64,000 nt of DNA, from positions 248,001 to 312,000 of the forward strand of contig NZ_OBEL01000004.1 in NCBI RefSeq assembly GCF_900215605.1. Direction: 5' to 3'. The stretch comes from Cohaesibacter gelatinilyticus (GTDB lineage Bacteria > Pseudomonadota > Alphaproteobacteria > Rhizobiales > Cohaesibacteraceae). Below, in pieces: positions 38,261 to 50,518 of the stretch. Below the pieces are notes generated by a model. It was given only the letters and a program-made list of their open reading frames with translations, did not search any database and was not told the origin of the DNA. How positions within the stretch are numbered: the stretch's first letter is position 1; every line of letters begins with the position of its first letter. The position numbers and the translations under genes are program-made.

Positions 38261-38289
38261 ATGTCGGTCTGACAGAAATCAGATGTCGG
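38261..38289 (+). promoter_or_regulatory. Direct-repeat operator candidate before the corrinoid protein operon
   Basis: ATGTCGG occurs at 38261-38267 and 38283-38289, a 22-nt period or two helical turns, 78 nt before the corrinoid protein gene. AraC-type activators bind such direct half-sites. The motif also occurs near other genes of the pathway. Confidence 0.5.
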
Positions 38290-38366
38290 ATTACGAACAG
38301 TCCTTACTCGTAAAAACACGGTACCCTTTTGTGAATGGACTTCGCATTCGGCAACTGGAGGACTGC

Positions 38367-39065
38367 ATGTCTGATGAAGAAATGATTGATCTGGCGTCCC
38401 TTGGTGATGAAGATCTCGTAGCCCAAATGCACGACGATTTGTATGACGGACTGGCCGAGGAAATTGAAGAAGGTGTACGCATTCTCCTTGATCGGAAATG
38501 GGAGGCATACAGGGTTCTGACCGATGCTCTCGTTGAAGGCATGCGAATTGTGGGCGTTGATTTCCGTGATGGAATTCTGTTCGTGCCGGAAGTTTTGATG
38601 TCTGCCAATGCCATGAAAGCCGGTATGGCCATTTTGCGGCCACTCTTGGCTGAAGCTGGTGCTCCGCGCATGGGTAAAATGGTCATTGGTACCGTCAAGG
38701 GCGATATCCATGACATTGGCAAGAATCTTGTCTCCATGATGATGGAAGGTGCCGGATTTGATGTCATTGATATTGGCATCAACAACCCGGTTGAAAACTA
38801 TCTTGAAGCATTGGAAGAGCATCAGCCTGACATCCTGGGCATGTCAGCTCTGCTGACCACAACCATGCCTTATATGAAGGTTGTGATCGATACGCTGGAG
38901 GAAAAAGGTCTCCGTGACAAGTATATCGTCATGGTTGGTGGGGCTCCGTTGAATGAGGAGTTCGGTGAGGCTATCGGTGCCGATGCTTATTGCCGTGACG
39001 CTGCTGTCGCTGTCGAAATGGCCAAGGATCTGATTGCTCGCAAGCATAACCAGTTGGGAGCCTGA
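38367..39065 (+). CDS. Methyltransferase corrinoid protein (MtbC/MtgC type)
   Basis: 232 aa cobalamin-binding protein. N-terminal helical cap (about 5-95; MSDEEMIDLASLGDEDL, LTDALVEGMRIVGVDFRDGILFVPEVLMSANAM) and a Rossmann-like B12 domain with the D-x-H-x-x-G motif GDIHDIGKN, in which His115 should be the lower cobalt ligand. It carries the methyl group between the MttB-like enzyme and the THF methyltransferase. ATG 38367 with TGGAGGA is clear; the longer frame from 38283 would cover the operator-like repeat. Confidence 0.93.
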   Translation: MSDEEMIDLASLGDEDLVAQMHDDLYDGLAEEIEEGVRILLDRKWEAYRVLTDALVEGMRIVGVDFRDGILFVPEVLMSANAMKAGMAILRPLLAEAGAPRMGKMVIGTVKGDIHDIGKNLVSMMMEGAGFDVIDIGINNPVENYLEALEEHQPDILGMSALLTTTMPYMKVVIDTLEEKGLRDKYIVMVGGAPLNEEFGEAIGADAYCRDAAVAVEMAKDLIARKHNQLGA

Positions 39066-39069
39066 TGCC

Positions 39070-39735
39070 ATGAAGCAGGATGATATCTCCATCATTGAGG
39101 CAGGGAGTAAAGCCCTGCCGATAATCGGGACATCATTCGCAACGGTTGGAGAAAAAGCTTCGGTACTGGTCATCGCCTGTGGTGCATTGGCTCGGGAAAT
39201 TCTGGCCGTCAAGGAACAGTTGGGTCTGGATCACCTGACCCTGACCTGTTTGCCTGCGAATTTGCATAATCGCCCCGAGGATATTCCGCAGGCAGTGCGC
39301 GATGCAATTCACAAACATCGCGCCAATTATGGAAAAATTCTGATCGGTTTTGGCGATTGCGGTACCGGTGGTTTGCTGGATCGAGTATTGCAAGAAGAAG
39401 GCGTAGAGCGGTTGGAAGGTGCTCATTGCTATGCTTTCTTCAGCGGTTCCAAGGCCTTCGAGACCCGAGCTGATGAAGAATTTACCAGCTTTTATCTGAC
39501 TGATTTCCTGGTCCGGAATTTCGAAACCATGGTCATTCGTCCCTTGGGGCTCGATCGATTCCCGCAACTGCGTGACACTTATTTCCAGCATTATGAAAAA
39601 CTGGTCTATATAGTGCAGCATGCTGAAGACGGCATGATCGACAAAGCAAAAAAAGCCGCGGAGCGTCTTCAACTGCCGCTGGAAATTCGCCAGACTGGTT
39701 ATGGCGACTTGGAAGCTTTTTTGGCAAGGGCGTGA
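39070..39735 (+). CDS. DUF1638-family protein
   Basis: 221 aa conserved protein of unknown function. Features: VIACGALAREILAVKEQLGLDHLTLTCLPANLHNRPE, GFGDCGTGGLLDRVLQEEGVERLEGAHCYAFFSG and LGLDRFPQLRDTYFQHY. Several conserved Cys and Gly residues could hold a cofactor. DUF1638 genes often sit beside corrinoid methyltransferases; here the ATG lies 5 nt after the corrinoid protein gene, so a role in corrinoid or methyl-transfer chemistry is likely but unproved. Confidence 0.85.
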   Translation: MKQDDISIIEAGSKALPIIGTSFATVGEKASVLVIACGALAREILAVKEQLGLDHLTLTCLPANLHNRPEDIPQAVRDAIHKHRANYGKILIGFGDCGTGGLLDRVLQEEGVERLEGAHCYAFFSGSKAFETRADEEFTSFYLTDFLVRNFETMVIRPLGLDRFPQLRDTYFQHYEKLVYIVQHAEDGMIDKAKKAAERLQLPLEIRQTGYGDLEAFLARA

Positions 39736-40421: not shown

Positions 40422-40727
40422 TTGGCTCAGAAAATCATTGTCTATTGGAGGGATATTCCGGCTCAGGTGATCGTCAAAAAGGGACGAATAAACGCCAAAC
40501 GAGAATTACCGGACATCTTCATCAAAGCAATCGACAAATGCGCCATGATTGACGGTGCCAAGGATAGCGACGCCTACCTGGCAGACTGGCGTCGTGAGGT
40601 GCCGATTACCGTTTCCGACAATCTGGATGACGAAGCTGCGATGGCACATGACATCCTGGTTGAAGCTTATCCAACTTCCCGTCTCGCTCAATTGGTTTCC
40701 CGCAAAGGCTTTGAACAGAAGGACTGA
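40422..40727 (+). CDS. Small PF13769-type protein (so-called virulence factor family)
   Basis: 101 aa soluble protein, MAQKIIVYWRDIPAQVIVKKG... with IDGAKDSDAYLADWRREVP, matching what I know of the small family found next to MetF-like and methyl-THF methyltransferase genes in marine alphaproteobacteria. Function unknown; the family name virulence factor has little meaning here. It uses a TTG start, supported by GGAGGA 4-5 nt upstream. It is 4 nt before the metF-like start. Confidence 0.75.
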   Translation: MAQKIIVYWRDIPAQVIVKKGRINAKRELPDIFIKAIDKCAMIDGAKDSDAYLADWRREVPITVSDNLDDEAAMAHDILVEAYPTSRLAQLVSRKGFEQKD

Positions 40728-40731
40728 GGCT

Positions 40732-41634
40732 ATGATGCGACCAACTTTGAATGCGGCAGGCAGACTCCCCGCTTCTATTGAAGTATCGCCAAAGCAAGCC
40801 GTGGAACGAGACGATATTTATGATCTCATTCCAAAAGGCTGTCGTGTCTATGTGACCGATCTAGGCAATGCGCCCGAAGACATGATTATCGCTGCCAATG
40901 CCCGTTTGGCACGGGCGGGATATTGCCCCGTTCCTCATTTTGCTGCTCGCCGTTTCGCAAGTGTCGAGCATTTTGAAAAGCGTCTGGAAAGGCTGGCAGG
41001 TGAAGCTGGTATCACGGATGTTTTGACCATTGCTGGTGAAGCAGTTCAACCAGGCCCTATTGCCTCCTCGCTGGATATGATGCGCACCGGCGCATTTGAC
41101 CGGCATGGTATCAGGCATATAGCGGTTGCTGGGCATCCAACCGGAGCACCTGATATTCCAACTCCGACCATCCGATCCTTCCTGATGCAAAAGCATGAAT
41201 ATGCCCAGACCAGTGATGCAGATTATCGGATCGTCACCCAGTTTGGATTTGATCCAGGTCGCATTCTGGAATGGTTTGATGAGTTGAAAAGCTGGGGCAA
41301 TGAATTTCCTGTCCATGTCGGAATTGCTGGTCCTGCCAAGACGACCACCTTGATGAAATATGCCGCAATGGTCGGGTTGGGAAATTCAGTTCAGTTTCTG
41401 AAGAAAAAAGGTTCCTCTTTGATGCCATTGCTCACCGGTTATAACCCCGATGTTGTGGTGGGGCCATTGGAAGAAGCAGTGAACCGAGATGCTGCCAAAC
41501 AATTGGCTCAAATTCACGTTTATCCATTTGGTGGCGTTGCCAAGGCAGCAGAATGGTTGAATAACCGGCAGAGTTGGCCCGGCTTGACCCAAGACAATAC
41601 CCCATCCCCTTTTAGAGCAGAGGCCGTATCATGA
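40732..41634 (+). CDS. Methylenetetrahydrofolate reductase-like protein
   Basis: 300 aa MetF-family barrel: ASIEVSPKQAVERDD, VYVTDLGNAPEDMIIAANARLARAGYCPVPHFAARRF, IAGEAVQPGPIASSLDMM, HPTGAPDIPTPT and VTQFGFDPGRILEW. The spacing of motifs follows MetF (FAD-binding barrel). In this cluster it would run in the oxidising direction, from methyl-THF to methylene-THF. Overlaps the methyltransferase gene by 4 nt (ATGA). Confidence 0.88.
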   Translation: MMRPTLNAAGRLPASIEVSPKQAVERDDIYDLIPKGCRVYVTDLGNAPEDMIIAANARLARAGYCPVPHFAARRFASVEHFEKRLERLAGEAGITDVLTIAGEAVQPGPIASSLDMMRTGAFDRHGIRHIAVAGHPTGAPDIPTPTIRSFLMQKHEYAQTSDADYRIVTQFGFDPGRILEWFDELKSWGNEFPVHVGIAGPAKTTTLMKYAAMVGLGNSVQFLKKKGSSLMPLLTGYNPDVVVGPLEEAVNRDAAKQLAQIHVYPFGGVAKAAEWLNNRQSWPGLTQDNTPSPFRAEAVS

Positions 41635-42551
41635 CTAGAACCATTGTCAGCTCCCATAAGCAGGAAGTCGTGATCGGCTTTGATCAACCCTTCTGTATCA
41701 TTGGTGAGCGTATCAACCCGACAGGCCGCAAGAAGCTTGCCGCTGAAATGAAAGAGGGTAACTACGAGACCGTGAAGGCTGATGCACTCGCGCAGGTGGC
41801 AGCTGGCGCTCATATGTTGGATGTGAATGCTGGTATTCCTCTTGCCGATGAGCCCGCCATTCTGGCAGAGACGATCCAGCTCGTTCAGTCTCTGGTGGAT
41901 GTACCAATTTCCATCGACAGTTCTATCATCGACGCTCTGGAAGCAGGTCTTTCTGTTTATCAGGGAAAGGCATTGGTCAATTCCGTAACAGGAGAAGAGG
42001 AAAGCCTTGAGCGCGTCCTACCATTGGTCAAGAAATATGGTGCAGCCGTCGTTGCCATTTCCAATGATGAAACAGGCATTTCAACCGACCCCGATGTGCG
42101 TTTTGCTGTTGCCAAGAAGATTGTCGAACGCGCTCAGGATCATGGCATTCCAGCTGCAGATGTCGTTGTCGATCCTCTTGTCATGCCAATCGGTGCCATG
42201 AATGATGCAGGACGTCAGGTCTTTCATTTGCTGCGTCGGTTGAAGGAAGAGCTGAAAGTCAACAGCACCTGCGGAGCCTCCAACATTTCCTTTGGCATTC
42301 CCAACCGTCATGTGATGAATGCCCATTTCCTTGCCATGGCATCGGTCGCCGGCATGACATCTGCTATCATGAACCCTCTCCATAAGGAAGAGCTGGATGG
42401 CATTCGCGCTGCCGATACTCTGAATGGCGTGGATCCGGATTGCATGGCATGGATCAAGGCCAATCGTGATCCGGCTGCAGCTGGAGGAGAAGATGCTGCT
42501 GGTGGTCGCCGTCGTCGCGGTGGTCGTCGGGCACGCAGCAGCGCTGCATAA
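41631..42551 (+). CDS. Methyl-THF:corrinoid methyltransferase (pterin-binding barrel) with Arg-rich tail
   Basis: 306 aa of the dihydropteroate synthase-like fold: IIGERINPTGRKKLAAEM, GAHMLDVNAGIPLADEPAILAETI, ISIDSSIIDALEAGL, NSVTGEEE and STCGASNISFGIPNRHVMNAHFL. As in AcsE/MtvA-type proteins it moves a methyl group between the corrinoid protein and THF. The last 16 residues (GGRRRRGGRRARSSAA) are an Arg/Gly tail outside the usual fold, similar to tails on three other proteins of this cluster. Confidence 0.9.
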   Translation: MTRTIVSSHKQEVVIGFDQPFCIIGERINPTGRKKLAAEMKEGNYETVKADALAQVAAGAHMLDVNAGIPLADEPAILAETIQLVQSLVDVPISIDSSIIDALEAGLSVYQGKALVNSVTGEEESLERVLPLVKKYGAAVVAISNDETGISTDPDVRFAVAKKIVERAQDHGIPAADVVVDPLVMPIGAMNDAGRQVFHLLRRLKEELKVNSTCGASNISFGIPNRHVMNAHFLAMASVAGMTSAIMNPLHKEELDGIRAADTLNGVDPDCMAWIKANRDPAAAGGEDAAGGRRRRGGRRARSSAA

Positions 42552-42632
42552 TGCGATCAGGCCCGGCCAACTAGTTCAGACCAAATCTACCCGAGGGGGC
42601 TATTTCGCACTCTCGGGCTCGTGCATTTGAAG

Positions 42633-44720
42633 ATGAGGCAAATCGTGCAGGACCCAATCACTTCTGATATTCCGAACAAAGAGCAAAAAGAAGCATTGGT
42701 CGTGTTTCAACCAAGTGGCAAGCGCGGCCGGTTTGCTCATGGAACCAACGTTCTGGATGCTGCACGATCACTGGGTGTTTATATTGAGTCTGTGTGTGGC
42801 GGACGGGGAATCTGCGGGCGTTGCCAGATTGAGATAGCTGAAGGGTCCTTTGCAAAAGACGGAATTCAATCGCACCAGGACCACCTCACTGCTTTTTCCG
42901 AAAAAGAAAAACGCTATTCTGAATTGCGAGATCTGAAGGATGGGCGCCGTCTTTCCTGTTCGGCTCAAGTTCAGGGCGATCTGATGGTGGATGTACCTCA
43001 GGATGTTCAGATCAATGCCCAAGTGGTTCGCAAGCGTGCAGAAGTCCTGCATATCAAGCCGGATCCCTCCACCCGTCTGATTACCGTATCCGTTGAGGAG
43101 CCGGATATGCATAAAGGGGAAAGTGACGCCAGTCGTCTGTTGCAAGCGCTTCGCCAACAGGCGGATCTGAGGCATTTGACGCTCGATCCATCTCTTTTTG
43201 CCAAATTGCAGACTTGTCTTCGAGAAGGAAAATGGCAGGTCACTGCAGCCATTCATCAGGACCGAGAAACTGATCCTGCCAGTGTGATTGCCTTATGGCC
43301 TGGTAAGCGACCACGTGGTTATGGCATTGCCATTGATATCGGCTCGACAACCATTGCGGCTCACTTGTGCGACTTGAGTAATGGGCGCGCCGTTGCTTCA
43401 TCAGGAACTGCCAATCCTCAAATCCGCTTTGGCGAAGATTTGATGTCGCGCGTCTCTTATATCCAGATGAATCCCGGCCGCCTACCGGATCTGGTCAAGG
43501 CTGTGCGGGATGCCGTCAATGTTCTGATCACAAAGCTGGCAGGACAAATTGGACTTGCACCACAAGATATTCTGGAAGCAGTGATCGTCGCCAATCCGGT
43601 TATGCATCACATTTTTCTTGGCATAGACCCAGTTGAACTGGGTGGCGCTCCCTTTGCCCTATCCATCTCCGAAGCCCAGAATATTGCAGCACGAGATCTT
43701 TCTCTATCTCTGCATCCAGCGGGACGTGTTTATGTCTTGCCGTGTATCGCCGGGCATGTCGGTGCGGATGCAGCTGCCGTGGCATTGACTGAAGTCCCCT
43801 ACCAATCGGATGAAACCCAACTGATCATCGATGTGGGAACCAATGCCGAAATTCTGCTTGGCAACAAAGATCGGTTGCTGGCGGCTTCTTCGCCTACGGG
43901 TCCTGCCTTTGAGGGGGCGGAGATTTCTTGCGGGCAACGTGCTGCGCCGGGTGCGATAGAGCGGGTCCGTATCGATCGTCAAACCCTGGAACCGCGCATC
44001 AAGGTGATCGGCATTGATCACTGGTCGGATGAACCTGAATTTCTTGAAGAAATTGATAAGGTTGGGGTAACTGGTATTTGCGGTTCCGGTATTGTGGAGG
44101 TTATTGCCGAGATGTATCTGAGCGGCATTCTTTCCAGCGATGGTGTTATCCAGCCGCATATGGCAGAGCGTAGTGATCGAATCGAGGCGGATGGACGGAC
44201 CCATCAATATTGTCTCTGGGATGGAGCAGTGCCGCTGACAATCAAGCAAACCGATGTTCGGGCCATCCAGTTGGCCAAAGCAGCTCTTTATGCAGGGGCA
44301 AAATTGCTGATGGAAAAACTTGGCGTCACCCAGCTTGATCGCATCAAACTGGCAGGTGCCTTTGGTTCCTTCATAGATCCTGATTATGCCATGATCCTGG
44401 GCCTCATTCCCGATTGTTCACTGCAAGTGGTATCAGGCGTTGGCAATGCTGCAGGGACAGGCGCGCACAAGGCTTTGATCAGTCGAACTGCCAGACGGGA
44501 AATTGAGCAGGCGGTTCATGACATTGAAAAGGTGGAGACCGCAGTGGAAGCCAAGTTCCAGGAACATTTCATTGATGCAATGGCCTTCCCTAACAAGGTC
44601 GATCCATTTCCTCTGCTCAGATCTCAAAGAGAATTACCTGCTTTCGAAGCTATGACGCAGGAAAACAGCAACAAGCCCCGCCGCCGGGGTGGCAGAAGGG
44701 CTCGTGGTCGTGCTTCTTAA
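42633..44720 (+). CDS. RACo-type ATP-dependent reductive activator of corrinoid proteins, with Arg-rich tail
   Basis: 695 aa. An N-terminal 2Fe-2S ferredoxin domain (SVCGGRGICGRC, C-x5-C-x2-C, later RLSCSAQ) is followed by linker and DUF4445/ASKHA-type ATPase domains (GIAIDIGSTTIAAHLCDL, IIDVGTNAEILLGN, SPTGPAFEGAEISCGQRAAPGAIE and KLAGAFGSFIDPDYAM). It should return inactive Co(II) corrinoid to Co(I) using an electron donor and ATP. The C-terminus KPRRRGGRRARGRAS repeats the Arg/Gly tail of the preceding gene product. ATG 42633 is chosen over GTG 42621; the ribosome site is weak. Convergent with bmt. Confidence 0.92.
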   Translation: MRQIVQDPITSDIPNKEQKEALVVFQPSGKRGRFAHGTNVLDAARSLGVYIESVCGGRGICGRCQIEIAEGSFAKDGIQSHQDHLTAFSEKEKRYSELRDLKDGRRLSCSAQVQGDLMVDVPQDVQINAQVVRKRAEVLHIKPDPSTRLITVSVEEPDMHKGESDASRLLQALRQQADLRHLTLDPSLFAKLQTCLREGKWQVTAAIHQDRETDPASVIALWPGKRPRGYGIAIDIGSTTIAAHLCDLSNGRAVASSGTANPQIRFGEDLMSRVSYIQMNPGRLPDLVKAVRDAVNVLITKLAGQIGLAPQDILEAVIVANPVMHHIFLGIDPVELGGAPFALSISEAQNIAARDLSLSLHPAGRVYVLPCIAGHVGADAAAVALTEVPYQSDETQLIIDVGTNAEILLGNKDRLLAASSPTGPAFEGAEISCGQRAAPGAIERVRIDRQTLEPRIKVIGIDHWSDEPEFLEEIDKVGVTGICGSGIVEVIAEMYLSGILSSDGVIQPHMAERSDRIEADGRTHQYCLWDGAVPLTIKQTDVRAIQLAKAALYAGAKLLMEKLGVTQLDRIKLAGAFGSFIDPDYAMILGLIPDCSLQVVSGVGNAAGTGAHKALISRTARREIEQAVHDIEKVETAVEAKFQEHFIDAMAFPNKVDPFPLLRSQRELPAFEAMTQENSNKPRRRGGRRARGRAS

Positions 44721-44754
44721 TTCATTGGGCGTGCGCAACATTTGGTGCCTGATT

Positions 44755-44777
44755 AAAAGTCTCTAAATGAGACTTTT
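44755..44777. terminator. Bidirectional terminator overlapping the bmt stop codon
   Basis: A perfect 9-bp stem AAAAGTCTC/GAGACTTTT with TAAAT loop. On the minus strand it begins at the bmt stop codon (TAA at 44778-44776); on the plus strand it ends the RACo transcript, with TTTTAG following the stem. Confidence 0.75.
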
Positions 44778-45819
44778 AGCTGCGGCGTCTGCGTCCGCCA
44801 CGACGGTTTCGTGCAATATCTTCATCGTCGCGTGGTGGCGATACAAGGTGGCCGATTTCACTTTCAATCGCTTCGCGCGTTGGACGTTCGCCCCGCACAT
44901 GGCTATCCATGGCCTCACGCATTGCTGCCAGATGATGCGGAGATGTGCCGCAGCAGCCGCCGACGATTGAGGCCCCAGCATCCAGCGCCATATGCATATA
45001 TTTGCCCATCAGATCTGGCGTGCCGGTATAAACGACCTTATCGCCCTGAATCTCGGGAATACCGCAATTGGCTTTGGCAATGACAATAGCTTCTGGATAA
45101 GCCTCGGTGAGTGAGAGGATCGCTACCAGCAAATCGGATGCGCCAACACCGCAATTTGAGCCAATGGCTGCAGGCTTATGGCCAATTTCCTCTTCGATCT
45201 TATCCGCAAGGTCACCAAGACCTTTAGGCGGCAAACCCATCATGGTTTTGCCCGCGCTGTCGAAACTCGCGGTGACAGTGAAAGGAAGGCCGACACCGGC
45301 GCAAGCTTCAGCCGCCGCTCTGATTTCATCAGGTGACGACATTGTTTCGATCCAGAGCAGATCAACGTCGGCATCTTTCAATGCCTGTGCTTGTTCGCGG
45401 AAACTATCAACCGCGTCTTCATGGGTGAGATCACCCATTGGTTGGAACAATTCTCCGGTTGGGCCAATGGAACCCGCAACAAGAACGTCTCGATCTTTAA
45501 CGCTCTGGGCAACCTCGCGGGCGAGCTCGACAGCCAACTTGTTCCACTTGCTCACATTGCCCTGAAAGTGATGCAGCTTTAGCCGATGGCGATTGCAGCC
45601 AAATGTATTGGTCAGGATGATATCGGAGCCCGCATCCACAAAACTCTGATGCAGAGCTCGGATTTTATCCGGCTGGGTTTCATTCCATTCTTCTGGTGGC
45701 CATCCGGATTCCAGCCCTACGGGGAAGAGATTGGTGCCGGTTGCCCCATCCGCCAGCAACGCTCCTTTTTGGGAAATCAGCTCTTTAAGCCTATTCAGCT
45801 TGGCATTATCAACCGCCAT
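44776..45819 (-). CDS. bmt: Homocysteine/betaine S-methyltransferase (Bmt type) with Arg-rich tail
   Basis: 347 aa zinc-dependent homocysteine S-methyltransferase barrel: LLADGATGTNLFPVGLESG, ILTNTFGCNRHRL, VAGSIGPTGE, GSNCGVGASDLL and the zinc pair GGCCGTSPHHLAAM. Together with the N-C-G Cys these bind Zn. Bmt enzymes transfer a methyl from glycine betaine to homocysteine, giving dimethylglycine and methionine, a parallel route to the corrinoid one. The C-terminus NRRGGRRRRS matches the Arg/Gly tails of its neighbours. ATG 45819 with GGAAGGA is used; the TTG at 45843 has no site. It is transcribed apart from the dehydrogenase gene, because a terminator stands between. Confidence 0.9.
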   Translation of the reverse strand: MAVDNAKLNRLKELISQKGALLADGATGTNLFPVGLESGWPPEEWNETQPDKIRALHQSFVDAGSDIILTNTFGCNRHRLKLHHFQGNVSKWNKLAVELAREVAQSVKDRDVLVAGSIGPTGELFQPMGDLTHEDAVDSFREQAQALKDADVDLLWIETMSSPDEIRAAAEACAGVGLPFTVTASFDSAGKTMMGLPPKGLGDLADKIEEEIGHKPAAIGSNCGVGASDLLVAILSLTEAYPEAIVIAKANCGIPEIQGDKVVYTGTPDLMGKYMHMALDAGASIVGGCCGTSPHHLAAMREAMDSHVRGERPTREAIESEIGHLVSPPRDDEDIARNRRGGRRRRS

Positions 45820-45891
45820 GGGGACAGTCCTTCCTTCAGTCAAATCCAGTCTGTAGCTAATAGGGATGGGGCCGGTAATAACGATATCAAT

Positions 45892-45920
45892 TGCGACATG
45901 CTCTGGAGCAAATGCGACAT
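45892..45920 (-). promoter_or_regulatory. Direct-repeat operator candidate before bmt
   Basis: TGCGACAT occurs at 45892-45899 and 45913-45920, exactly 21 nt apart. Read on the minus strand this is ATGTCGCA-N13-ATGTCGCA, the same half-site and spacing type as at 38261 and 40232. Confidence 0.5.
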
Positions 45921-45961
45921 CGGTAATTCATTTGCCCTGTCAGCATCTGATACAAAAGAAA

Positions 45962-45984
45962 AAGACCCTGCTATACAGGGCCTT
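45962..45984 (-). terminator. Terminator after the dimethylglycine-dehydrogenase-type gene
   Basis: On the minus strand, AAGGCCCTG pairs with CAGGGTCTT (one G-T pair), 5-nt loop, followed by a T-rich tract (TTTCTTTTG). It lies 43 nt after the dehydrogenase stop and separates that gene from bmt. Confidence 0.8.
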
Positions 45985-46026
45985 CATCCAGCTTGCTCAC
46001 CATTTATTCAAAGCATCAACGCTCTA

Positions 46027-48537
46027 TCAGCTCCGCAATCTTTCGTTGGTTGGATCGAACGGAGAATCTCCGATGATGGTGGCACGATGGCGATTGCCGA
46101 GAATTTCAATCTCGAATTCTTCTCCTTCACCAGACATTGCAGGAGGAACCATAGCCAATGCCAGGCTTTTTTCGAGACGCCAGCCATAGCCGCCAGATGT
46201 GGCACGGCCGATCATTTCACCATCTTTATAAATGGCTTCGGAACCACGCGCATCCGCATCGGTGACATCATGAACTTCCATCGTGACCAGCTGCCATTTG
46301 CGTCCCGCATCTTCGCGAGCCTGTAGACCTGCCTTGCCACGATAATCATTTTTCTTGTTATTGATGAAGCGATCCAGACCACTCTCCAACGCGCTATATT
46401 CAATGGACAATTCTCGTGCGATGAATTTGTAGGTCTTCTCAAGACGCATGGAATCCATGGCACGAATGCCATATGGCTTCAGACCATGCTCGGCACCCGC
46501 TTCCATCAATGCATCAAAGATTGCATTCTGTTGTTCGATTGGGTGATGCAGCTCCCAACCAAGTTCACCGACAAAGTTTACCCGGACCGCCATTGCAGAA
46601 GCACGTGCAATGCTGATCGGCTGGCCGGTGAGCCAAGGGAAGGTCTCATTTGAGAGATCTGTATCAGTTACCTTCTGCAAGATTTGACGGGCTTTCGGAC
46701 CGGTCAGAACTAGCACACCATATTTGGTCGTGACCAGTTCCATTGAAACCGAACCGTCATTTGGTAGCAGTTTCTGTAGATAGTCATAATCATGGCGCTC
46801 CAGTGCACCAGCAAAGACCAGATAATAGCTCTGATCGCCAGTTTTCAGAACCGAGAATTCCGACAATACACCACCGCTCTCACTGAGCAGATAGGACAGG
46901 ATGATACGGCCGGACTTCAAAGGCATCTTGTTGGTGGTGATGGCGTTTAGCCATGTTTCAGCACCGGGGCCTTTCACTTCAACCTTTGCAAAGGCAGTCA
47001 GATCCAGAAGACCTGCATTCTGCGTGGTATTTTTGACTTCATTGCCGACATGCTCGAAGTAATTGGAGCGGCGGAACGAGTATTTCTCGACAATCCGGCC
47101 ATCTTCAAATGCAGGAGAGTGGTTTTCTTTCAAAAGAACGTCTGGCAGGTTCAAATCCGCTTCGCTCAGCTCATAGCCTTCTGGCGCAAACCAGTTCGGA
47201 CGCTCCCAGCCATAGACAGATCCGAAGACGGCGCCAAGAGCCTTCATGCGGCTATAACAAGGAGAGGTTTTAAGAGGGCGAGCCGCAGCGCGCTCTTCAT
47301 CAGGATAGTGAACTGTGAAGACAGCTGCATAAGCCTCTTCGCACTTTTCCTTCAGATATCCACGACTTGCATAAGGGCCAAACCGACGTGGGTCTACGCC
47401 CATCATATCAATGGAAGGCTCGCCTTCGACCATCCATTCAGCCAACTGCCAGCCAGCGCCACCGGCCGCGGTGATGCCGAAGGAATGACCTTCATTCAGC
47501 CATACATTCTTCTTGTTCCAAGCCGGGCCGATGATTGGGCTGCCATCAGGGGTGTAGGCAATTGCACCATTATAAACCTGCTTGATGCCCACTTCACCGA
47601 AGGCTGGAACGCGCTCGATAGCGGTCTCGATATATGGCATCAAACGATCGAGATCTTCCTGGAAGAGCTCATATTCTGATTCATCCGATGGGCCATCAAC
47701 ATAACAAGCAGGCGCACCAATTTCGTAAGGGCCAAGCAGAAGGCCACCATTTTCTTCGCGCATATACCATGAACTGTCAGATTCACGCAGGACGCCCATT
47801 TCTGGCAGACCTTTTTCGCGCAACTCACGAATGGCGTCATGAGGCTCGGTAACAATATATTGGTGCTCAACAGGCAGAACCGGAATGTCGAGGCCTAGCA
47901 TCGCACCGGTTTTGCGAGCGAAGGAACCGGTACAGCAGACAATATGCTCACAAGTGATATCACCCTTGTCTGTCTTGACCACATATTCGCCATTTGGTTT
48001 TTCATCGACACCAAGTACACTGGTATAGCGATAGATTTCCGCTCCGCCAGCACGCGCGCCTTTGGCGAAAGCCTGGGTTAGATCGGCAGGCTGCACATAA
48101 CCATCATCAGGATGCTGAATAGCACCGATAATACCTTCCGGATTGTAAAGTGGCCAGATATCGGAGACTTCTTCGGGTGTGAGGAAATTCACGTCAACAC
48201 CGATGGTCTTAGCGACGCCGGCATAATACTTATACTCATCCAGACGATCTTGCGTGCGGGCAAGGCGGATATTGGAGACCTTGCGCAAGCCAACATTCTG
48301 ACCAGTCTCGGCTTCAATGGAATTGTACAAATCAACAGAATAACGATGGATTTGGCCGACAGAATAACTGAGATTGAACAGCGGCAATAGCCCGGCAGCA
48401 TGCCAGGTTGAACCTGATGTCAGCTCCTTGCGTTCGATCAGAACGACATCATCCCAACCTTTTTTGACCAGATGATAGAGTGTGGAAGCGCCAACAACGC
48501 CTCCACCAATGACGACTACACGTGCGTGCGATTTCAT
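46027..48537 (-). CDS. Dimethylglycine/sarcosine dehydrogenase-type FAD protein with GcvT domain
   Basis: 836 aa. N-terminal FAD oxidoreductase of the DAO family (VVVIGGGVVGASTLYHLVKKG) with SGSTWHAAGLLP, in which His46 fits the covalent-FAD histidine of dimethylglycine dehydrogenase. A FAO middle domain follows, then a GcvT-like THF domain (about 430-835; GLLDLTAFAKVEVKGPGAETWLN, FVGELGWELHHP). It would oxidise dimethylglycine or sarcosine and load the C1 unit on THF. Product of the adjacent MttB-like enzyme or Bmt would be its substrate. Divergent from the methyltransferase gene across 421 bases. Confidence 0.9.
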   Translation of the reverse strand: MKSHARVVVIGGGVVGASTLYHLVKKGWDDVVLIERKELTSGSTWHAAGLLPLFNLSYSVGQIHRYSVDLYNSIEAETGQNVGLRKVSNIRLARTQDRLDEYKYYAGVAKTIGVDVNFLTPEEVSDIWPLYNPEGIIGAIQHPDDGYVQPADLTQAFAKGARAGGAEIYRYTSVLGVDEKPNGEYVVKTDKGDITCEHIVCCTGSFARKTGAMLGLDIPVLPVEHQYIVTEPHDAIRELREKGLPEMGVLRESDSSWYMREENGGLLLGPYEIGAPACYVDGPSDESEYELFQEDLDRLMPYIETAIERVPAFGEVGIKQVYNGAIAYTPDGSPIIGPAWNKKNVWLNEGHSFGITAAGGAGWQLAEWMVEGEPSIDMMGVDPRRFGPYASRGYLKEKCEEAYAAVFTVHYPDEERAAARPLKTSPCYSRMKALGAVFGSVYGWERPNWFAPEGYELSEADLNLPDVLLKENHSPAFEDGRIVEKYSFRRSNYFEHVGNEVKNTTQNAGLLDLTAFAKVEVKGPGAETWLNAITTNKMPLKSGRIILSYLLSESGGVLSEFSVLKTGDQSYYLVFAGALERHDYDYLQKLLPNDGSVSMELVTTKYGVLVLTGPKARQILQKVTDTDLSNETFPWLTGQPISIARASAMAVRVNFVGELGWELHHPIEQQNAIFDALMEAGAEHGLKPYGIRAMDSMRLEKTYKFIARELSIEYSALESGLDRFINNKKNDYRGKAGLQAREDAGRKWQLVTMEVHDVTDADARGSEAIYKDGEMIGRATSGGYGWRLEKSLALAMVPPAMSGEGEEFEIEILGNRHRATIIGDSPFDPTNERLRS

Positions 48538-48958
48538 GCCAATCCTCCCGCATGATCAAGGCACCCTGTTCTCGCCATTCCTTCTGAGCAAGTCCGAATG
48601 AAAAAAGGGGCCTGTTCTGTCTTTCTTTTCAAGATTAGAAATCTTTCATCCAAACAAGAGGTTTTGGAGCGACAGGAAATATCGTGATATCGCCATAGAG
48701 CAGATAAATCATGCATAATTTGGGAAATGCCATGGCCTTGTTTTTGTTTGATCCAAAGAAGAGATCTCTCCGTTTCGACCCAAATGTCGTTTTTGAACCG
48801 ATTGAAGACGCAAACAAGGCGTGATCAAAAAGCACAGAACGGCAGAGTGGATAGACAGCTTGTTTTTGCCACCCTTGCATAATCAACAAATTGACAGCGA
48901 TGGTGCGCAAAGATCGAAACATGCCAGATGACAAGATAAGTAAGAATGGGAGAGAGCT
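48538..48958. promoter_or_regulatory. Divergent control region of the dehydrogenase and MttB-like genes
   Basis: A 421-base gap. It must hold promoters for both genes. One ATGTCG half-site is at 48784-48789, without a convincing partner 21-22 nt away. No ORF, terminator or repeat beyond this was recognised. Confidence 0.35.
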
Positions 48959-50518
48959 ATGGCCGATGGGGATGCCCGTGGAGCAAGACGGAGTGCTCGA
49001 GGAGGAGGACGTGCCGCAAGAAGACAGGCACGGGGTGCTTCTGTTTCCAGCGTTGCAGCGCCAAGTTATCTGAAGCGGCAGATTCCTCTGGTCGAATATC
49101 TTACCGAGGAAGGCCTGAATAAAATCGAGGCTCAAGCCGATCGCATGCTGGCGGAAATAGGTCTGGAATTTCGTGAAGATCCGGAGGTGTTGGAGATCTG
49201 GCGCACTGCAGGAGCAGAAGTAGAAGGAGAGCGGGTTCGTTTTCCAAAAGGAATGCTTCGTGAATTGATCAAGACTGCTCCGTCCGAATTCACGCAATAT
49301 GCTCGCAATCGCGAGCGTTCGGTTCAGATTGGTGGCAACAATACTGTCTTTGCTCCGGTTTATGGCCCCCCTTTTGTTATAGATCTGGATAAGGGCCGCC
49401 GCTATGGCACCATTGAAGATTTCCAGAATTTCGTAAAACTGGCCTACCAGTCTCCGCACCTGCATCATTCAGGTGGCACAGTTTGCGAACCGGTAGATAT
49501 TGCGGTCAATAAACGCCATTTTGATATGGTTTATGCGCACCTGAAATATTCAGACAAACCATTCATGGGATCAGTCACAGCTCCGGAACGGGCCGAGGAT
49601 TCCGTGGCGATGGCTCGATTGGCCTTTGGTGAGGAATTTGTCGATCAGAACTGTGTCATGATCCAGCTGATCAACGCCAATTCTCCGCTTGTCTTTGATG
49701 CGACCATGCTGGGTGCTTTGAAAGTTTATGCTCGCGCCAATCAGGCCTGTATCGTATCACCTTTCATTCTGGCAGGAGCCATGAGCCCGGTTACCGTGGC
49801 TGGTACCTTGTCCCAAGTCTATTGTGAAGGGCTTGCTGCTGCTGCATTGACCCAGCTGATCCGCCCCGGTGCGCCAGTTGTTTTTGGTGCTTTTGTGTCT
49901 TCCATCTCCATGCAATCCGGCGCACCGACTTTCGGATCTCCAGAGGGCTCATTGTTGCTTTCTGGCGCCGCTCAAATTGCCCGTCGTCTTGGTTTGCCAT
50001 TCCGCTCCGGTGGGTCTTTCACAGCCTCAAAAGTGCCTGACGCACAAGCGGCTCAGGAAAGCGCCCATACCATTTTGGCCACCGTGCAATCTGGTGTTAA
50101 CTTCTGCCTGCACTCTGCTGGTTGGCTGGAAGGTGGACTTTGCTCCTCTTATGAGAAGCTGGTCATGGATGCAGATCAACTGGGCATGATGCATGTACTT
50201 GCAAAGGGCATCGATCTCAGTGATGAGGCCCTTGCATGGGATGCTTTCAATGAAGTGGGACCAGGCGGCCATTTCCTGGGCGCAGAACACACTCAGCGCA
50301 ACTTTGAGACCGCTTTCTATCGTTCAACTATTGCTGACAACAATTCGTTCGAGCAATGGGAAAGTGACGGCAAGCTGGATGCTGCCTCGCGCGCAAACAA
50401 GCAATGGAAAGAAATGTTGGCCAATTACCAGCCACCTGAGCTTGATGTGGCAATTGATGATGCTCTGCAGGATTTCATTACCCGACGTAAATCGGAATTT
50501 CCGGACAGCAATGTCTAA
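48959..50518 (+). CDS. MttB-superfamily methyltransferase without pyrrolysine (MtgB-like) with Arg-rich N-terminus
   Basis: 519 aa of the trimethylamine methyltransferase family (YLTEEGLNKIEAQADRMLAEIGLEF, NRERSVQIGGNNTVFAPVYGPPFVIDL, GGTVCEPVDIAVNKRHFDM, GAFVSSISMQSGAPTFGSPEGSLLLSGAAQIARRLGLPFRSGG). There is no in-frame TAG, so it is a non-pyrrolysine member; characterised relatives demethylate glycine betaine (MtgB), proline betaine or carnitine. The first ~33 residues (GARRSARGGGRAARRQARGA) are Arg/Gly-rich and precede the conserved fold, like the C-terminal tails of its partner proteins. GGGAGAGAG stands before the ATG. Confidence 0.9.
   Translation: MADGDARGARRSARGGGRAARRQARGASVSSVAAPSYLKRQIPLVEYLTEEGLNKIEAQADRMLAEIGLEFREDPEVLEIWRTAGAEVEGERVRFPKGMLRELIKTAPSEFTQYARNRERSVQIGGNNTVFAPVYGPPFVIDLDKGRRYGTIEDFQNFVKLAYQSPHLHHSGGTVCEPVDIAVNKRHFDMVYAHLKYSDKPFMGSVTAPERAEDSVAMARLAFGEEFVDQNCVMIQLINANSPLVFDATMLGALKVYARANQACIVSPFILAGAMSPVTVAGTLSQVYCEGLAAAALTQLIRPGAPVVFGAFVSSISMQSGAPTFGSPEGSLLLSGAAQIARRLGLPFRSGGSFTASKVPDAQAAQESAHTILATVQSGVNFCLHSAGWLEGGLCSSYEKLVMDADQLGMMHVLAKGIDLSDEALAWDAFNEVGPGGHFLGAEHTQRNFETAFYRSTIADNNSFEQWESDGKLDAASRANKQWKEMLANYQPPELDVAIDDALQDFITRRKSEFPDSNV

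Follow-up and report, generated by a model that had tools for sequence, protein, structure and literature searches.

Arginine-Rich Terminal Tails on the Corrinoid-Contacting Proteins of the MtgBCDE System: A Candidate Docking Tag for MtgC

Known systems and the Cohaesibacter locus

The MtgBCDE systems of Ruegeria pomeroyi and Phaeobacter inhibens (PMC12478193, PMC5764234) have the same enzyme set as the locus considered here, which lies in a 64,000-nucleotide stretch of Cohaesibacter gelatinilyticus (contig NZ_OBEL01000004.1, positions 248,001 to 312,000; hereafter the window). The first of these sources reports, from R. pomeroyi mutants, that MtgC and MtgD serve both methionine synthesis and glycine-betaine demethylation; its authors suggest a multimeric enzyme in which MtgC is the core, and present MtgBCDE as a widely expressed ocean route of glycine-betaine turnover and methionine synthesis (PMC12478193). 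In P. inhibens, a DUF1638 protein is required for methionine synthesis, its role there being unassigned (PMC5764234). The window is a member of this split methionine synthase / glycine-betaine demethylase system. Pfam and NCBIfam profiles match separate genes for MtgB, MtgC, MtgD and MtgE within it, and Pfam also detects both the RamA/RACo-like activase and the DUF1638 protein, as expected for the system. Our subject is the Arg-rich tail that four of these proteins carry at one terminus.

As far as literature searches reach, the tails are an undescribed feature of a known system. The words "tail" and "arginine" are absent from the accessible part of PMC12478193, and "tail" and "arginine-rich" from those of PMC5764234 and PMC12366255. 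No report of such tails was found in the open-access library searched. Plasmid-borne MttB-family proteins of R. pomeroyi and P. inhibens also start with Arg-rich stretches.

Corrinoid methyltransferase proteins of anaerobes and archaea (2qne and 9yce, MtgB; 7xcn, MttB-MttC; 3zyy, RACo; 2yck, AcsE-like) share the folds and, as separate proteins, likewise have to meet a corrinoid protein. Unlike the window proteins, the MtgD-like 2yck and 4o0q, as well as the activase 3zyy, have chains that stop no more than about 10 residues past the domain. The match of the MtgB structure 9yce opens at residue 42 of the window MtgB with just two residues ahead of it, which leaves no room for an N-terminal tail. 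The first 15 residues of 2qne and the first 21 of 7xcl fell outside the comparison, and both are uninformative on this point, while 4yyc has an Arg-rich N-terminus resembling that of the window MtgB.

Four tails and their conservation

The original prediction described similar Arg-rich tails on four enzymes of the corrinoid pathway, and all four are present in the translations as quoted. MtgD, the methyl-tetrahydrofolate (methyl-THF):corrinoid methyltransferase (41631..42551, plus strand; Pterin_bind, with NF005719 above cut-off), has the C-terminal end GGRRRRGGRRARSSAA, the tail itself (GGEDAAGGRRRRGGRRARSSAA) occupying 42483..42548 on the plus strand. The RACo/RamA-like corrinoid activase (42621..44720, plus strand; RACo_C_ter, Raco_middle, RACo_linker and Fer2) ends in KPRRRGGRRARGRAS (44673..44717, plus strand). 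MtgE/Bmt, the homocysteine S-methyltransferase (44776..45843, minus strand; S-methyl_trans, with NF005718 above cut-off and matched up to the model's last residues), ends in NRRGGRRRRS (44779..44808, minus strand). MtgB (48959..50518, plus strand; PF06253, E 1e-234), the sole MttB-family member detected in the source genome, carries its tail at the N-terminus, MADGDARGARRSARGGGRAARRQARGA (48959..49039, plus strand). The folds beneath the tails were said to be unrelated, and they indeed belong to four different Pfam domains (Pterin_bind, RACo/Fer2, S-methyl_trans and MTTB). Translation and conservation in relatives support all four tails, and a genome-wide pattern search supports the three C-terminal ones.

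In that search, the DNA pattern encoding [RS][RS]GG[RS][RS]x[RS] matched three times in the 5.2 Mb genome, once in each of the MtgD, RACo and MtgE tails. The reversed pattern matched six times in the same genome, so it is the positions of the three forward matches that are telling, not their number. The Arg codons vary between the tails, which rules out a copied DNA repeat as their origin and argues for selection on the peptide. In the AlphaFold2 prediction the MtgD domain is folded with high confidence, and residues 284-306 score below 50 in the predicted local distance difference test (pLDDT), so that the MtgD tail is, by this model, disordered and devoid of predicted structure. Relaxing the pattern to five Arg codons, one residue and a stop gave two matches in the source genome versus two control matches, and in a relative (G185) one of the 32 matches listed was a known tail. 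This relaxed form was rejected as a finder of further tagged proteins (33/40 genomes), being unspecific, with too high a background among the matches listed.

The tails are real, conserved and more widely spread than first noted. At least 593 MtgD relatives were found and the best 80 loci retained. Taking four or more Arg in 12 residues beyond the domain as a tail, and counting complete C-termini only (ends cut by a contig edge or poorly aligned were excluded), these named relatives had a tail on 77/77 MtgD, 64/64 RACo and 9/9 MtgE. The carriers are Alphaproteobacteria, Gammaproteobacteria and Actinomycetota, plus a few entries without a stated class, and a single branch of the MtgD tree separates Pseudomonadota from Actinomycetota. 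In a bin titled Bifidobacterium breve (L074), the MtgD and RACo tails are nearly identical to those of Acidimicrobiia loci, and the title is probably a mislabel.

Under a stricter cut, five Arg in 12 within the last 25 residues (loci L006-L114 plus the window), 175 of 182 MtgD, RACo and MtgE ends passed, versus 8 of 627 other conserved ends; the latter figure is the extent to which tails turned up at random on other proteins, an outcome set against those that the original prediction had named as refuting. Among the seven misses, in two MtgD (L082, L114) a Gly-rich extension follows the Arg-rich stretch, two MtgE reach four Arg, and three frames are seemingly truncated or frame-shifted. At the other terminus, 25 of 27 MtgB proteins had four Arg in 12, against 36/338 unassigned conserved open reading frames (52/751 with other assigned families added). 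Both MtgB misses do carry the stretch, one behind a start set too far upstream and the other with three Arg and a Lys.

Of 190 genomes sampled within the class, 35 have close MtgD homologues (at least 62% identity), and each of the 35 is one of the 40 that possess an MttB-family gene. In stretches mostly from these genomes, window copies included, the tail was present on 29/31 MtgE, 34/35 RACo and 32/32 MtgD; some species may be represented twice, once among the named relatives and once here. The MttB-family set, from class and phylum draws, spans several distant subfamilies, and divergent paralogues are tailed too. With a usable start there were 96 proteins, in a set that is redundant (seven entries from one genus, at least one gene twice): 85 had four Arg in 12, nine had three and two had fewer. 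Of the latter, L132 has its tail behind another start and L276 is truly tail-less. Eight proteins were excluded, three for want of a start and five because the domain match came too late; by eye, the tail is present in four of these five, the remaining one being a fragment. Arg-rich starts also occur in annotated MttB-family proteins of R. pomeroyi, P. inhibens, S. meliloti pSymA, Paracoccus aminovorans and Alisedimentitalea. An MttB-like frame on Sinorhizobium meliloti 2011 pSymB (L348, an unannotated record) has no Arg-rich N-terminus and is an exception to the rule.

A place in a contiguous cluster is no requirement for a tail, as unlinked MtgE genes and many MttB paralogues located elsewhere are tailed; the idea that tails signal contiguous clusters alone is therefore ruled out. 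Nor was there any pattern among relatives of full clusters being mostly tail-less, the other refuting outcome that had been named.

Composition is not a by-product of base content. Across 77 loci the Arg count of the tails was uncorrelated with GC content (rho 0.17, p 0.14), and tails are still present at 37% GC. Together with the 8/627 other ends, this rules out chance or GC-driven composition. In the 13 loci below 50% GC, MtgD and RACo tails held 148 Arg and 17 Lys, versus 195 Arg and 163 Lys in the MtgD cores. That Arg is kept over Lys suggests guanidinium-specific contacts with carboxylates, phosphates or aromatic groups.

MtgC as candidate partner

Which proteins carry the tag and which do not is the basis of our interpretation. 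The tailed families are those required to contact the B12 protein, and MetF2 and the dehydrogenase need not do so (roles in part by homology; PMC12478193). The absence of a tail from the corrinoid protein, DUF1638, the MetF-like product and the dehydrogenase, claimed for the window, extends to relatives, save 3 of 66 DUF1638 frames with long ends that are seemingly frame-shifted; these three are among the eight high-scoring other ends. Proteins with no need of the hub thus almost never carry the tag, and it is the same on four unrelated folds with one shared partner, the partner being taken from the pathway.

That partner, MtgC (38367..39065, plus strand; B12-binding and B12-binding_2 domains), has the strongest acidity per residue of all the cluster's products, at -9.9 per 100 residues, followed by MtgE at -3.9. 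Its start is probably 38367 rather than 38283, going by relatives; the longest frame opens at 38283, 28 codons upstream of the start seen in them (38283-38366). The first 36 residues (38367..38474, plus strand) form the candidate docking site, with a net charge of -14 in the window protein and a mean of -12.6 in 57 relatives (range -16 to -3, the -3 coming from a sequence with a doubtful start). The N-terminus is acidic in 57/57 sequences, Q20, D23, D24, L25, Y26, G28, E32 and E35 are invariant, and AlphaFold2 predicts a high-confidence helix at residues 14-26. NCBIfam models of anaerobe MtgC begin to align no earlier than residue 43 or 44 in the numbering of the long frame; for 1y80 the alignment opens at residue 51. 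Among the 40 genomes with an MttB-family gene, 34 have one close MtgC and one has two, while MttB copies per genome reach at least seven. Many tagged clients therefore appear to share one MtgC hub.

A tag conserved on just the corrinoid-contacting proteins, together with the strong acidity of the corrinoid protein, makes docking on MtgC the best reading of the tails. We put the chances that they are a shared docking tag for MtgC at about even, which makes it the likeliest explanation considered, and we infer both the partner and the tethering role from the set of proteins that bear the tag. In such a scheme, MtgC would be an acidic hub meeting in turn MtgB on the methyl-donor side, MtgD for methyl-THF, MtgE for homocysteine and the activase for reductive reactivation. 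Fused MetH tethers its modules on one chain; the split clients would instead bear a disordered Arg-rich tail at one end, which would touch the acidic N-terminal region of MtgC and raise encounter rate or affinity. The folded domains would supply specificity and chemistry, and the tag would be exchangeable between clients.

Several results weigh against docking on MtgC. The charge of MtgC and that of the tails were correlated in raw form (rho -0.37, n 55; rho -0.41, n 46), and independent contrasts removed the relation (r -0.05, p 0.73; r -0.10, p 0.52), so that co-evolution of the charges shows in the raw data and no longer after phylogenetic correction. A close MtgC was not found in 5 of the 40 MttB genomes, one of which (G176, 93% complete) nevertheless has a tailed MttB. 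MtaC 2i2x (from residue 25) and the MtaC and MetH models (from 24 and 36) align further into the MtgC N-terminus, which means that the acidic region may not be peculiar to MtgBCDE. DUF1638, although linked to reactivation, has no tail, and the preference for Arg exceeds what simple charge attraction would need. Bmt is active alone in vitro (PMC12366255), and a methanogen MttB-MttC complex assembles with no such tail reported in the accessible part of PMC9842639, so docking is possible by other means.

Natural controls were mixed. At three loci (L274, L275 and L276) an MttB gene directly precedes that of a private corrinoid protein unlike MtgC. The genomes concerned have the tagged system as well, and the private proteins are without the acidic region. 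The L276 MttB, beside a differently built corrinoid protein, is tail-less, as docking predicts. Those of L274 and L275 retain Arg-rich N-termini, which again counts against the proposal and leaves one case in three as predicted. Fusions of MtgC with a client, in which tail loss would be expected, were not found among the frames of the first loci.

Some of these observations would fit other explanations. RG/RGG tails of RNA-binding proteins, which are likewise Arg/Gly-rich, disordered and terminal, bind polyanions and gather on them. In the same way, RNA, polyphosphate or anionic membrane lipid, rather than MtgC, might be the common polyanion bound by the tails of the mtg proteins, and could draw the enzymes together, perhaps in a condensate. 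Arg kept over Lys even at low-GC loci would suit such binding, as would the RG-rich composition and the predicted disorder of the MtgD tail. The window tails are short, though, and sit on metabolic enzymes in which no RNA-binding Pfam domain was found. We consider a polyanion rather unlikely because the tag is limited to partners of the corrinoid protein, and MetF2 and the dehydrogenase, which could also gain from co-localisation, are without it. Another acidic or dedicated scaffold, such as DUF1638 or a protein encoded elsewhere, could hold the tails with MtgC gathered there too. DUF1638 is a conserved neighbor (68/115 stretches, many of them short), and its need in P. inhibens methionine synthesis would be in keeping with such a role. 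It is only mildly acidic (-3.6 per 100 residues, versus -9.9 for MtgC), and no other conserved family was prominent in loci of up to about 20 kb, making a separate scaffold improbable.

It is also doubtful that the tails act within their own protein (solubility, stability or active-site closing) or are a by-product of composition, their likeness being coincidence. In favor of this reading, loose runs of Arg codons before a stop are common in GC-rich genomes, and MtgD and RACo tails from one locus resemble each other weakly (permutation 0.017), a resemblance that loses significance once phylogeny is corrected for (r 0.19, p 0.13). Against this stand the near-total conservation in tailed families compared with 8/627 other ends, the independence of Arg count from GC, and the position of the tails at opposite termini of unrelated folds. 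The common docking tag put forward originally is thus partly supported, by a conserved tag on corrinoid-contacting proteins and an acidic MtgC. The methyl-transfer metabolon that was part of the same proposal stays putative.

Neighboring genes and significance

DUF1638 (39052..39735, plus strand; PF07796) follows MtgC, and a dimethylglycine/sarcosine dehydrogenase-like protein with DAO and GCV_T domains lies at 46027..48537 on the minus strand. The MetF2-like product (40549-41634) is named from its position and the papers; Pfam and NCBIfam searches at E 0.001 gave no match to its frame, though it is conserved beside MtgD. A small PF13769 protein (40422-40727, by Pfam) is a frequent neighbor of mtg clusters (67/115 stretches, many short; E 1e-10), and the family label "Virulence_fact" is uninformative about its role there. 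Elsewhere in the source genome (G000, contig C1, about 2136455-2138005, minus strand), a 1239-residue frame matches the pterin and B12 query parts and is presumably a full-length MetH, alongside the split system.

Short terminal peptides that link unrelated partners to one hub are familiar from the C-terminal tips of single-stranded DNA-binding protein (SSB), encapsulin cargo peptides and polyketide synthase docking domains. Compared with these, the window tag is Arg-rich and found at either terminus, and its putative hub is a metabolic cofactor carrier. A broader view, which we hold tentatively and with somewhat less than even confidence, is that the covalent tethers of MetH give way to an Arg-rich tag that clients can interchange. 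The acidic corrinoid protein would then be a plug-in hub that any methyltransferase could join by gaining the tag at either end, and a single B12 protein would serve the expanded MttB paralogues for different methylated compounds, in Pseudomonadota as in Actinomycetota. A tag on just the hub-contacting subunits makes the question of how separate subunits find one B12 protein directly testable. It is also a sequence mark for finding further MtgC-using methyltransferases, and could serve to plug new enzymes into the B12 hub.

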